Part shown: positions 6,137 to 9,466 of the stretch, in pieces
Layout: each line of letters begins with the position of its first letter
How positions within the stretch are numbered: the stretch's first letter is position 1
Source of the DNA: Arthrobacter sp. 35W
GTDB taxonomy: Bacteria > Actinomycetota > Actinomycetes > Actinomycetales > Micrococcaceae
NCBI RefSeq assembly: GCF_000482545.1
Contig: NZ_KI519455.1
Coordinates: 620,001-684,000, forward strand
Length of the DNA stretch: 64,000 nucleotides
Direction: 5' to 3'
Notes under the pieces: generated by a model
What the model was told of the DNA's origin: nothing
The model's database searches: none
Seen by the model: only the letters and a program-made list of their open reading frames with translations
Translations under genes and position numbers: made by a program

Positions 6137-6213
6137 CGGGGTGTGGCGCAGCTTGGTAGCGCGCGTCGTTCGGGACGACGAGGCCGCAGGTTCAAATCCT
6201 GTCACCCCGACCA
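6137..6213 (+). tRNA. tRNA-Pro (anticodon CGG)
   Basis: A 77-nt cloverleaf can be folded by eye. The acceptor CGGGGTG pairs with CACCCCG, the D arm is GCGC/GCGC, and the anticodon stem is CGTCG/CGACG with loop TTCGGGA. The T arm is GCAGG-TTCAAAT-CCTGT, and the 3' CCA is encoded. The anticodon CGG reads CCG, a very common proline codon in this GC-rich genome. A TATTCT box about 50 bp upstream may be its -10 element, and a strong terminator follows 2 nt after the gene. Confidence 0.96.
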
Positions 6214-6396: not shown

Positions 6397-7572
6397 CTAC
6401 ACGCTGTCCAGGGCCCAGTGGCGCAGGGCCATGAGTGCGGCGCCGTCGCTGCCGGACGAGGGCGCGGAGGCGCCCATGCCGACCACTGTGGAGCGGTTGC
6501 CAATGTTCAGCTGGCGGGCGGCCAGTGCGGCGCGCACGGGCTCCAGGAGCCTGTCTCCGCATTGGGAGAGCTCGCCGGCCACCACCACGCGGCTGGGGTC
6601 CACAATCATGGCCGCGGTCGCCATGGCCCGGCCCAGCAGGGTGCCGGCCCAGGCGATCACACCAAGGGCCACCTCGTCGCCGTCGTCGGCTGCCGCGGCC
6701 AGGGCGGCAATCGAGGCGAAGCTGCCGCCACGCGCGGCGGCCTCGGCCAGCACATTCGCCACCCCAAGGTAGCTTTCCAGACAGCCCACACCCCCGCACC
6801 AGCAGGGCTTGCCCTCGAAATCAACGCTGGTGTGCCCCAGCTCGCCGGCCAATCCATTGCCGCCGCGCAGCGGGGAACCCTTCACCACCACGGAGCAGCT
6901 AATGCCGGTGGAGAGCACCACGTACAGCAGATCCTCGGAGGCCAGGGCGTAGCGCGCGGATTCGGCCATGGCGGCCAGGCGGATGTTGTTGTCCCACAGC
7001 AGGGGTGCATCCAGCAGCAGGCGCAGCTCCTCGAAGGAGGCGCCCTGCGGATCGCTTTGGCGGGTGTCGTCGTCGGCCAAGGACGCGGGATCCGCATGCC
7101 GGCTGGCCACGCCCACGCCGATGCCCAGAATGGAATCACCTCGGACCACACCGCTGTCCACCAGGGAGCGCACGATGCCCACGGCCCGGGAAACCTTTGC
7201 GGCCAGCTCCATGGCGGGATCGATGTCGAGAAGTTCGTGGGCCACGGAGCTTCCATCAAAGCCGGCCACGGTGACGCTGATGCGTGCGCGGCCGAGCTCA
7301 ATGCCGACGGCGGCGCCTGCCGTTGGATCCAGGGTGAGCACCTTGGTGGGGCGGCCGTTGCGGCCCTCCCCATAGTGTTCCTTCACGCTTTCGGCCAGCA
7401 CCCCGCGCTGGCGCAGATCGCCCACAATGGCCGAGAGCGTGGTGCGGGACAGCTTGGTGTCCTCTTCCAGTTCGCGGCGGGTGCGCGGCCCGTTCTCCAC
7501 CAGCGCTTCCAGAACGCGCAGCTCGTGGCGCCGGCGCACCGCCTGCAAGGCACCATCTTCCCTGGTGAGCAT
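6397..7572 (-). CDS. ROK family transcriptional regulator
   Basis: An N-terminal winged-helix domain (about residues 10-75, including the LSRTTLSAIVGDLRQRG recognition region) is fused to a ROK sugar-kinase fold. The zinc-binding motif CWCGGVGCLESY is present, as is the ELGHTSVD motif that precedes it in ROK proteins. Such proteins usually repress sugar-uptake genes and respond to a sugar or sugar phosphate. The ATG at 7572 is preferred because GGAGG lies 6-7 bases before it; an in-frame GTG at 7587 overlaps that site. No sugar operon is adjacent, so its regulon cannot be read here. Confidence 0.87.
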   Translation of the reverse strand: MLTREDGALQAVRRRHELRVLEALVENGPRTRRELEEDTKLSRTTLSAIVGDLRQRGVLAESVKEHYGEGRNGRPTKVLTLDPTAGAAVGIELGRARISVTVAGFDGSSVAHELLDIDPAMELAAKVSRAVGIVRSLVDSGVVRGDSILGIGVGVASRHADPASLADDDTRQSDPQGASFEELRLLLDAPLLWDNNIRLAAMAESARYALASEDLLYVVLSTGISCSVVVKGSPLRGGNGLAGELGHTSVDFEGKPCWCGGVGCLESYLGVANVLAEAAARGGSFASIAALAAAADDGDEVALGVIAWAGTLLGRAMATAAMIVDPSRVVVAGELSQCGDRLLEPVRAALAARQLNIGNRSTVVGMGASAPSSGSDGAALMALRHWALDSV

Positions 7573-7692
7573 GACATCCCTCCGCACAGCCGCTGGGCAG
7601 CGGCGCCGGAACAGCGCCGCTGATTTATGTAAAGTCTATTGCCTTAACTGGCGTTCCCGTGCATTGCGACGTGTCGGCATGGCCGGAAAGAC

Positions 7693-7730
7693 AGCTGTGC
7701 CCGGACACCGACCGGTGTCCGGGCACAGCT
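7693..7730. terminator. Strong hairpin downstream of the repeat-peptide gene
   Basis: 17-bp perfect arms (7693-7709 and 7714-7730) enclose a GACC loop. On the minus strand it lies 25 bp after the stop of the 59-aa peptide gene and is followed by a short T-rich stretch. It would isolate the peptide transcript from the ROK gene (start 7572). Confidence 0.8.
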
Positions 7731-7754: not shown

Positions 7755-7934
7755 CTAGTACAGCTTGGGAGCGACGGAGTCCGGCCAAATGCCGGGGGCT
7801 GCGCTGACCTTGTCCGGCCAAATGCCGGGAGAGTCCGGCCAAATGCCGGGCGAGTGAGTCCAGCTACCCGCGGAAGAAAAAAGACCCAGGGCCATTACCC
7901 CCGCAAGCATGAGTGACGCTGCAAGCTTCTTCAT
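7755..7934 (-). CDS. Small secreted peptide precursor with three PGIWPD repeats (candidate pheromone)
   Basis: The 59-residue product has a lysine-containing start (MKK), a hydrophobic core at about residues 5-19 and a possible AGS or SSA cleavage site near 21-24. This is a Sec signal peptide. The exported part carries SPGIWPD at 28-34, SPGIWPD at 35-41 and APGIWPD at 46-52, then a short tail ending PKLY. The ATG at 7934 has an AAAGGTGGT ribosome site 4 bases upstream. It is divergent from an XRE-TPR regulator, with 198 bp between the start codons. Tandem copies of one heptapeptide in a secreted precursor suggest proteolytic release of several identical signal peptides, as in yeast alpha-factor. 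A repeat-containing antimicrobial peptide is the main alternative; no modification, maturation or immunity gene lies nearby. I do not recognise a named family. Confidence 0.72.
   Translation of the reverse strand: MKKLAASLMLAGVMALGLFSSAGSWTHSPGIWPDSPGIWPDKVSAAPGIWPDSVAPKLY
7779..7850 (-). repeat. Three identical 18-bp coding repeats encoding the PGIWPD units
   Basis: The 18-bp unit GTCCGGCCAAATGCCGGG occurs without change at 7779-7796, 7812-7829 and 7833-7850. It encodes the PGIWPD core each time. Synonymous positions are identical too, which points to recent duplication or homogenisation. Each unit also contains a short CCGGC/GCCGG inverted repeat. Confidence 0.95.
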
Positions 7935-8022
7935 GACACCACCTTTGTGAATTGGGACGTACTTCGTTCGCACAATCGGCGCCCACGGCGCGCCACAAGC
8001 ACAGAGGCACTTGTTGACAACA

Positions 8023-8053
8023 ATTGTAAAATCTATCCTAGGCAAGGTGTCAA
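8023..8053 (-). promoter_or_regulatory. Candidate sigma70-type promoter of the peptide gene
   Basis: On the minus strand a consensus TTGACA (8053-8048) and TACAAT (8028-8023) are separated by 19 bp, slightly longer than optimal. A long spacer fits a promoter that needs an activator. The predicted leader is about 80 nt. Confidence 0.5.
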
Positions 8054-8058
8054 GATAG

Positions 8059-8073
8059 TTACAGTATCTGTAA
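8059..8073. promoter_or_regulatory. 15-bp palindrome TTACAG-N3-CTGTAA, candidate operator for the XRE-TPR regulator
   Basis: Perfect 6-bp arms flank a 3-bp spacer. The site ends 5 bp upstream of the candidate -35 box of the peptide gene and 60 bp upstream of the regulator's GTG. This is where an activator of the peptide promoter would sit, and binding there could also affect the regulator's own promoter. A second palindrome, TTGTTGACAACAA at 8011-8023, abuts the -10 region. Confidence 0.5.
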
Positions 8074-8132
8074 GTGAATGTCTTTGGCCGCTTTGTTGAT
8101 GGTTGGCGACCCTGGGCGCAGGAGAGGACCTT

Positions 8133-9377
8133 GTGGGCAATAGTTTTGGAGACCGGCTCCGCAACGAGCGGCTGGCCCGCAGCCTGACGCAGGCCGAGCT
8201 GGGCGGGGATTTGTACTCGGCCAGCTACGTTTCGCTGCTGGAAAACGGGCGCCGCGAACCCACCATGGAGGTCATCAAGCAGCTGGCCAAACAGCTCCAA
8301 CTGGCTCCGCACGCCGTCCAGGAATGGACCATGCCCGTCTCTCCCGCCGAAACTGCCTACCTGCTGGCCGCCCTGTACGCCCGCCAGTCGTGGGACATGC
8401 GCGACTACGCCGCTGCCGCCCGCCAGGCCGGCGTTGCCGCGGACAAGGCCCTGGAGAACAAGGATCCCGTCTCCTGGTGGAACATGGCCTACCTGCAGGC
8501 CAATTCCCTGCTGAAGGACGCCGATTTTGCCGGCTGCCGCGCCGTGGTGGCGGAACTGCTCAAGCACCCCTTGTCCGAGGAATCGGTGGGGCTGTCCGTG
8601 CGCGCCCGGCAGTTGATGGCCTCGGCCTCGCTGGGACTGGGCCAGTTGAGCGAGGCCATCGACCAGGCCACCGCCGCCGTCGAGCGGGGCACCGGAATCC
8701 CCGAGGAGTTCGACGCCTACATTGCGGCCCTGCGCACCCTGATCGGTGCACTGGCCGAAACCGGCCGCCTGGATGACGCCTGGAGCCACTGTGTGACGCT
8801 CTCGGCGATGCTGGATGACTCAGTGCCCTCGCAGCTGGCCGGGGAGATCTACTGGGTGATCGGCAACGTCGCGTTCATGCGCCACGACGTCGACCAGGGC
8901 CTGGCCAACCACGCCAAGGCGGGCCGGATGCTCTCCCCCGCCAGCGATCTGGCCCTGTGGGCCCAGTTCAACAAGGCCACCGCCTGGGTCCGCCTCGCCG
9001 CCGGCGTGGTGGAACCGGCCACCATGGAGGCCATCGAACGGGCCGAGCTGGCCCAGTCGGTGGTCGGTGCCAACCTGAGCGACAGGCTTGAAGTTTCGCT
9101 GCTGCGTGCGCGCTGGCTCTACCTCAACGGCTCCATGGACGATGCCCTGGCCCTGCTCCAGGCCATCAACTCCCAGCAGGATGCGCTGGCCAAGCACACC
9201 GCCGGGGACACCGCGCTGCTGCTGGGCAAGGCGCTGAAGGCCCTCGGCCGCACGGCGGAGGCACTGGTGGCCCTGAACGAGGCCAAGGAGCACTTCGCGG
9301 AGGCCGGCGCGGCGGACCGTGTGGCCCTCACAGTGGACAACATCCTGGAGATCCGCGCCGCCGACAGGCAGAAATAG
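8133..9377 (+). CDS. XRE-family HTH regulator with C-terminal TPR array (RRNPP-like candidate receptor)
   Basis: The 414-aa protein has an N-terminal HTH domain (about residues 5-60, with LTQAELGGDLYSASYVSLLE as the core). A long all-alpha region follows, with repeated helix pairs that read as degenerate TPRs from about residue 80 to the end, for example the AALRTLIGALAETGRLDDAW and LLLGKALKALGRTAEALVAL segments. There is no membrane segment. The GTG at 8133 is chosen for its GGAGAGG site 5 bases upstream; an earlier TTG lacks one. HTH plus TPR is the architecture of PlcR, NprR, PrgX and other RRNPP receptors that bind imported peptides. The divergent neighbour encodes a secreted repeat peptide, so a peptide-sensing role is the natural inference. 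A general XRE-TPR regulator without a peptide ligand is the alternative. Confidence 0.82.
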   Translation: MGNSFGDRLRNERLARSLTQAELGGDLYSASYVSLLENGRREPTMEVIKQLAKQLQLAPHAVQEWTMPVSPAETAYLLAALYARQSWDMRDYAAAARQAGVAADKALENKDPVSWWNMAYLQANSLLKDADFAGCRAVVAELLKHPLSEESVGLSVRARQLMASASLGLGQLSEAIDQATAAVERGTGIPEEFDAYIAALRTLIGALAETGRLDDAWSHCVTLSAMLDDSVPSQLAGEIYWVIGNVAFMRHDVDQGLANHAKAGRMLSPASDLALWAQFNKATAWVRLAAGVVEPATMEAIERAELAQSVVGANLSDRLEVSLLRARWLYLNGSMDDALALLQAINSQQDALAKHTAGDTALLLGKALKALGRTAEALVALNEAKEHFAEAGAADRVALTVDNILEIRAADRQK

Positions 9378-9382
9378 CAACG

Positions 9383-9455
9383 CCGCCCAACTGGGTGACA
9401 GTTATCGCACATTCCGGACCGAATTTTGTGCGATAACTGTCACCCAGTTGGGCGG
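9383..9455. repeat. Long intergenic palindrome, copy 1 (29-bp perfect arms)
   Basis: Arms at 9383-9411 and 9427-9455 are perfectly complementary around a 15-nt loop. The outer sequence CCCAACTGGGTGACAG is shared with three other palindromes in this window. It begins 5 bp after the regulator stop and ends 11 bp before the purC stop, so it may serve as a bidirectional terminator between these convergent genes. Confidence 0.93.
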
Positions 9456-9466
9456 CGGGGGACGGT

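Follow-up and report, generated by a model that had tools for sequence, protein, structure and literature searches.

The 64,000-nucleotide stretch of Arthrobacter sp. 35W analyzed here (contig NZ_KI519455.1, positions 620,001 to 684,000; called the window below, with coordinates counted from its first letter) contains a gene for a small, putatively secreted pro-peptide with three copies of PGIWPD. Divergent to it lies a gene for a protein with an XRE-type helix-turn-helix (HTH) followed by a tetratricopeptide repeat (TPR) superhelix. We interpret this locus as a two-gene peptide signaling unit of the RRNPP type, with a probability of roughly 0.85. A preliminary description of the window had proposed that, outside the Firmicutes, a secreted pro-peptide is paired with an HTH-TPR receptor encoded beside it; this core claim withstood the tests run, and the association of receptor and peptide is real and far wider than first noted.

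The pro-peptide gene (7755 to 7934, minus strand; read from the sequence and from the relatives P0002 to P0004) encodes 59 amino acids, MKKLAASLMLAGVMALGLFSSAGSWTHSPGIWPDSPGIWPDKVSAAPGIWPDSVAPKLY. It begins with a Sec-type, signal-like segment, MKKLAASLMLAGVMALGLFSS, in which an MKK start is followed by a hydrophobic stretch; signal peptides of this open reading frame (ORF) and its relatives were judged on composition only. The 18-nt PGIWPD cores lie at 7833 to 7850, 7812 to 7829, and 7779 to 7796 (all minus strand), and because their DNA is identical, the repeat duplication in this gene looks recent. The ORF, its Sec-type start, and its three copies were thus found where the preliminary description had placed them, together with the ribosome-binding site, AAAGGTGG (7939 to 7946, minus strand), four bases before the ATG. 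The terminator claimed for the gene stands in part: a perfect 18-bp hairpin follows it (7693 to 7730, minus strand; arms 7693 to 7710 and 7713 to 7730; fold z score of -6.3) and is likely the transcript end, but a terminator scan made no call there. Against NCBIfam, the pro-peptide matched Phr_nterm at an E value of 0.43, below the cut-off.

The receptor gene (8133 to 9377, plus strand, GTG start) encodes 414 amino acids. Residues 5 to 64 (8145 to 8324, plus strand) form the XRE HTH domain (Pfam HTH_31, E = 6.9e-10; HTH_3, E = 7.4e-9), and the AlphaFold model (21 homologues; mean predicted local distance difference test score of 90.5) is an all-helical superhelix with regular helix pairs past residue 70. 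The TPR superhelix (residues about 71 to 412; 8343 to 9368, plus strand), which is the proposed peptide-binding groove, holds F132, A163, E209, L235, E238, and W285. The divergent XRE-HTH protein with TPR-like helices was therefore recovered as described earlier, with the repeats resting on the modeled fold and the Pfam TPR models giving weak matches below their cut-offs; searches of NCBIfam and PHROGs with the window proteins yielded weak HTH-level matches. Traits by which RRNPP (or RRNPPA) systems are recognized include a TPR receptor with an N-terminal XRE HTH and an adjacent small gene for a Sec-exported pro-peptide. Both are present at this locus, the former by Pfam, the AlphaFold superhelix, and TPR fold matches and the latter with its signal judged by composition.

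The pair recurs widely. A scan of genome contigs confirmed 137 loci, of which the best 80 are the named loci below; their records are titled Arthrobacter, Pseudarthrobacter, Paenarthrobacter, or Specibacter, plus a few metagenome-assembled records. A divergent pro-peptide is encoded in 71 of the 80, with at least two W-P copies in 67 (leaving out L097, whose peptide flag was spurious) and a single copy in 4, and is missing at 9. In addition, 214 distinct receptors were drawn from the matches listed, excluding those with <90 bits, <350 nt upstream, or an identical protein, and were screened by one fixed rule (i.e., a short, divergently oriented ORF whose product begins like a signal peptide and has W-P after residue 20). 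Such an ORF lies beside 151 of the 214, comprising 114 of 176 HTH-TPR receptors and 37 of 38 TPR-only proteins, which lack the HTH; the actinobacterial pairs of XRE-TPR genes and divergent small ORFs for which the preliminary description had proposed a search thus exist. By sequence identity, the peptide accompanies HTH-TPR receptors in 7/8 cases at ≥65%, 73/92 at 55 to 65%, 29/33 at 45 to 55%, and 2/6 at <35%. Applied outside the divergent region (80 named loci, 1.08 Mb, both strands), the same filter predicts 0.016 hits per window searched. For the 199 receptors with enough downstream sequence, the ORF is divergent upstream at 137, convergent downstream at 8, on the same strand downstream at 6, and on the same strand upstream at 1. 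A protein search recovered P0002 to P0004, with PGIWPD and PGKWPD copies (one in Pseudarthrobacter sp. P1), and a family-wide peptide search gave further relatives, with a receptor homologue in all eleven loci picked by eye. P0002 carries PGIWPD and PGKWPD in a single precursor, which possibly represents two signals.

The small ORF is, judging from its substitution pattern, a gene under purifying selection. The ratio of nonsynonymous to synonymous substitution rates (dN/dS) of the pro-peptide family is 0.19 (168 equal-length pairs, 70 to 99.5% identical), which bears out the conservation and coding-type substitution sought for it, and every degenerate codon of 244 GNWPDPM motifs varies synonymously. 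The 15-nt cores differ in DNA within 95 of 112 multi-copy genes, with silent and other changes pooled. Precursors carry one to eight copies of a core that reads V or I (also P or T), G, a variable residue (N, W, D, I, and others), W, P, and then D, N, H, Y, F, or another residue. The protein ends three residues past the last WP (e.g., WPDPM) in 78 of 111 distinct HTH-type precursors and one residue past it in 32 of 37 TPR-only precursors. Because the conserved core is (V/I/P/T)GxWP(D/N and others), SPGIWPD, proposed earlier as the pheromone, is a candidate rather than an established mature peptide.

Peptide and receptor also covary, a check that the preliminary description had suggested. We considered precursors in which the third residue before W is I in every copy or V in every copy; 16 of 150 rows, in which this residue is mixed or neither I nor V, fall outside the test, and L190 was left out. 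Receptor residue 132 gives the peptide letter in all 134 pairs: a W, M, F, Y, or H at 132 accompanies V (72 rows), and an L, I, or V accompanies I (62 rows). Both the letter and residue 132 switch nine times on the tree, and independent pairs on well-supported branches agree in 7 of 7 cases (sign test, P = 0.016). Since residue 132 is the best of 344 columns, the null consisted of 600 random nine-change traits, each scored by its best column; on the tree of 132 rows, which lack the second receptors of L162 and L163, 0 of 600 reached 1.0 (mean accuracy, 0.865; maximum, 0.947). Tandem receptors at L162 and L163 follow the same rule, with F or Y132 beside a V peptide and L132 beside an I peptide. 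The window pair, P with F132, is outside the tested rows.

Further associations, counted over 72 representative rows, are suggestive only and concern residues 163, 209, 235, 238, and 285. For the residue before W, N occurs with A or S285 in 39 of 41 rows, S with D285 in 5 of 5, Y with Q285 in 3 of 3, and I with W285 in 3 of 5. Two residues before W, N occurs with S163 and with D209 in 8 of 9 rows each. After WP, D occurs with L235 in 29 and with E238 in 28 of 34 rows, and F with Y235 plus Q238 in 7 of 7. For the residue before W, columns 285 and 286 of the receptor come out on top by mutual information, the order by pairwise partial correlation is 324, 282, 193, and 286, and the independent pairs for column 285 never point in the wrong direction but are too few; we therefore claim only the residue 132 result firmly. 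The M or A ending of GNWPDP(M/A) showed no fixed receptor difference between 81 M-type and 8 A-type receptors. Elsewhere in the receptor, W241, N245, W276, and R287 are invariant in all 151 peptide-bearing members.

Between the two genes lies a conserved element, TTGACA-N3-ATTGTAAAAT-N15-TGTCAA (8014 to 8053, serving as a putative divergent promoter/operator). On the minus strand, ahead of the pro-peptide gene, TTGACA (8053 to 8048) and TACAAT (8028 to 8023) are separated by a 19-nt spacer, which reads as a long-spacer promoter of that gene. At ≤3 mismatches, TTGACA-N3-ATTGTAAAAT is present in 109 of 113 HTH loci with a peptide (83 exact), a count that is partly by construction since the pattern was derived from these loci; the evidence is the contrast with 1 of 62 HTH loci without a peptide and 0 of 38 TPR-only loci with one (shuffled sequences gave about 7 mismatches). 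L303, scored as HTH but placed in the TPR-only clade, was counted as TPR-only in this tally and in that of GGDEF genes below. Of the 109 HTH loci with both peptide and element, 107 also have the second arm, TGTCAA, at a distance of 28 nt behind TTGACA. Among 149 family genomes, 11 contain an exact site, one each and always at the pair, and the reversed pattern occurs in none. Because TPR-only loci do not have the element, the HTH is the most plausible protein domain to recognize it. A perfect intergenic palindrome, TTACAGTATCTGTAA, was considered as an operator and dropped, being present in 1 of 81 loci.

The TPR-only proteins (about 345 amino acids) align to residues 71 to 410 of the receptor family (E = 6e-102) without the HTH and, together with L303 and apart from L180, form one clade (Shimodaira-Hasegawa approximate likelihood ratio test support, 98). 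L180, scored as TPR-only without a peptide, aligns in two pieces (1 to 44 and 47 to 398) and is placed by the tree within the HTH receptors; it probably represents a broken member of that group. Cores of the divergent TPR-only peptides include IGWWPN, VGSWPF, VNNWPY, and KVGNWPD. At each of the loci L162 and L163, two TPR-only receptors lie in tandem, and each receptor has its own divergent peptide with a different core. GGDEF motifs are encoded downstream on the same strand in 25 of 37 TPR-only loci (L154 to L168 and L286 to L307) versus 0 of 100 HTH loci with a peptide. One such neighbor checked by Pfam contains GGDEF (E = 8.6e-42) and EAL (E = 1.2e-8) domains; in 5 loci a further gene intervenes (one checked, DUF7793), and 4 of the 37 face a GH18-like gene (one checked, E = 0.0045, below the cut-off). 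This adjacency suggests that the peptide signal is linked to cyclic di-GMP (c-di-GMP).

At the level of the order, 13 of 198 genomes match the receptor at E ≤ 1e-20, all of the same family except two of family f17. In one locus of the latter (L205), three GGSWPT copies are encoded next to a receptor gene whose product is 28% identical, and no such W-P peptide was found at L206 and L215, which share its genus code. At the level of the class, 16 of 345 genomes match at E ≤ 1e-25. L224 has its best named homologues in Streptomyces, and genus code g115 is accordingly taken to be Streptomyces. Under a laxer filter without a control of its own, a small divergent secreted ORF occurs in 20 and its W-P form in 11 of 37 outer-family loci (leaving out the partial loci L332, L336, and L337), with two of the 11 (L229 and L319) doubtful as secreted peptides; examples include DIEWP twice, IDWP three times, DIGWP twice, TLDWPWI, and YGWGWPG. 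The Streptomyces-group receptors L224, L226, and L311 to L313 have divergent repeat peptides with DIEWP, DIGWP, IDWP, or DIDWP. No receptor relative was confirmed among 12 stretches from a viral contig collection, and none was found on plasmids (E ≤ 1e-10) or in phages (E ≤ 1e-5).

Among the closest known systems is PlcR-PapR of the Bacillus cereus group, in which the gene of an XRE HTH and TPR receptor likewise neighbors that of a short exported pro-peptide. Searched against the PDB, a profile built from 21 receptors matched PlcR (2qfc) at E = 3.4e-8 over positions 4 to 217, the longest match across HTH and TPR of any entry, and ComR at E = 4.1e-4 over the HTH only; designed repeat proteins and an immunity repressor outscore PlcR in this search, and other XRE proteins match too. 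PlcR was the sole match of a single-sequence PDB search (E = 0.0039, over the HTH), PlcR-PapR ranked third with Foldseek (E = 1.4e-5), and a second aligner scored Rap up to 24.9, NprR 22.9, and AimR about 21. Membership of the receptor in RRNPP by descent is likely, although unrelated TPR proteins share the fold matches. Unlike PlcR-PapR, the present system belongs to another phylum and has a 414-residue receptor with a longer TPR superhelix and a divergent, mostly multi-copy pro-peptide with a W-P core. It differs from Rap-Phr of Bacillus and its phages in the divergent pro-peptide and in the GGDEF gene that follows most TPR-only receptors, and from NprR-NprX in phylum and peptide core.

Intracellular TPR receptors that sense quorum peptides are described from Bacillota. 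Excerpts of a survey of 13,513 complete RefSeq bacterial genomes (PMC9765709) place seven RRNPPA families in Firmicutes genera and describe multi-copy precursors with up to six copies in Bacillota; those of PMC11343458 describe tandemly duplicated Phr precursors with up to eight. The earlier view that three copies are unusual for RRNPP is thus contradicted, and the idea that repeat precursors are rare in bacteria was rejected. The tandem Phr pro-peptides of phages phi3T and phi105 in the same excerpts (PMC11343458) also hold several pheromone copies per precursor, but they belong to Bacillota and phages and differ in core. As excerpted, RRNPP_detector (PMC10075063) is illustrated on Firmicutes and viruses, a review of Actinobacteria (PMC4748050) gives only LuxR-like and related domains for Arthrobacter, and two 2026 reviews (PMC13220807 and PMC13419125) name no actinobacterial RRNPP system. 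Among the papers listed from the open-access literature, with subscription journals and preprints outside the scope, none concerned an actinobacterial RRNPP-type system.

Several observations weigh against a two-gene signaling unit. Among HTH paralogues of 35 to 45% identity, 3 of 37 have a peptide, one of them really TPR-only and one doubtful, and under the laxer filter the W-P form is absent at 26 of 37 outer-family loci. In the window's own genus, the receptor is present in 23 of 23 genomes, but an adjacent peptide was found only in the window genome and in G004, where the precursor has two VWIWPD copies, leaving 21 of 23 without one. The possibility that the regulator occurs mostly without the peptide therefore does not apply to the family (71/80 and 151/214) but does to the genus (2/23). 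With the second aligner, APPBP2 (26.6) and MalT (25.9) score above Rap and LGN reaches about 21, so that the fold match is partly generic, and for the TPR-only model LGN, a generic TPR protein, ranks above Rap. The mixed precursor of L145 (VVVI) with an L132 receptor is an unclean fit to the covariation, and the element count carries the circularity stated above. When 7 genomes were scanned with the 22-nt element (≤3 mismatches) for additional regulon members, 6 showed only the site at the pair and the seventh showed none.

The own-genus receptors without an adjacent peptide (L003, L005, L080, L081, L083, L091, L097, and others) mostly do not have the promoter element and keep W285, as do all 20 peptide-less receptors at ≥55% identity; for this reason, they may still read a GIWPD-type peptide of their neighbors (i.e., eavesdropping). 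Just downstream of an own-genus receptor without a peptide (locus L019, near position 2758 of that locus), there is a short DVGVPD repeat without W-P.

An improbable alternative is that the peptide binds the receptor without being a population signal; it would tell the cell about the state of the cell's own secretion or proteolysis, or would act intracellularly, prior to export. Covariation calls for binding rather than density sensing, and the promoter element suggests a self-contained loop, both of which would suit this explanation. It agrees less well with signal-like N termini in a gene under purifying selection, with multi-copy precursors that need proteolysis, and with the retention of W285, a residue seen with GIWPD-type peptides, by 20 of 20 peptide-less receptors, as expected of listeners.

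We regard it as very unlikely that the product of the small ORF is an exported antimicrobial or a peptide like those that are ribosomally synthesized and posttranslationally modified, with the HTH-TPR protein as a local regulator or immunity factor. The product would be secreted, repetitive, and tryptophan-rich beside a regulator, and a homologue of the window's ABC exporter is near in 68 of 80 named loci; the other neighbor, however, is purC (77 of 80), and no maturation or immunity gene was noticed, although only homologues of the window's own neighbors were sought. TPR-only paralogues keep the peptide despite having no DNA-binding domain, and the lock between I or V and a receptor residue fits a ligand better than a toxin. 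A chance ORF, or repeats that are a mere DNA feature, has a negligible probability: the identical window cores do resemble a recent tandem duplication, but the dN/dS value and the synonymous variation at every degenerate GNWPDPM codon argue for coding, and 0.016 expected hits per window searched contrast with 151 of 214 found. For the family, the co-occurrence control and dN/dS rule out a chance ORF.

If the locus is a signaling unit of the RRNPP type, the pro-peptide would be exported by Sec, and signal peptidase together with extracellular proteases would trim it to a short W-P peptide of about 5 to 8 residues, in the window around PGIWPD. This peptide would accumulate outside and enter through an oligopeptide ABC importer; the window genome encodes 16 OppA-type binding proteins (SBP_bac_5 genes) as candidate importers. 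Inside, the peptide would occupy the concave groove of the TPR domain, its third residue before W lying close to receptor residue 132, and binding would alter the action of the HTH on the shared element and feed back on the pro-peptide gene. As the element covers the pro-peptide promoter from -35 to about +1, we lean toward repression relieved by the peptide. Rap is a receptor without an HTH that acts on its partners by protein contact, and the TPR-only branch, with its own peptides, would probably act likewise on the neighboring c-di-GMP enzyme.

Other features of the window surround the locus. A gene for a ROK-family regulator (6397 to 7587) lies between the ABC exporter and the pro-peptide gene and has a homologue in 0 of 80 named loci in the stretch searched. 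The sole tRNA of the window, tRNA-Pro (CGG), is nearby at 6137 to 6213. A perfect 31-bp inverted repeat with a 15-nt loop (9381 to 9457), between the regulator gene and purC, is perhaps a two-way transcript end.

Taken more broadly, these data may describe a W-P pheromone language of the Actinomycetota's own, extending from Arthrobacter to Streptomyces, with an HTH-TPR branch, a TPR-only branch wired to c-di-GMP, a code at residue 132, and a signal-less, possibly eavesdropping clade in the window's genus; we give this wider picture about even odds. If true, it would place peptide signaling in a phylum better known for small-molecule signals, and common soil actinobacteria and some Streptomyces, known as antibiotic makers, would carry a peptide signal that is genetically readable and synthesizable. 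The covariation would constitute a specificity code open to single-substitution tests, and, judging from the TPR-only branch, peptides may feed directly into c-di-GMP signaling.

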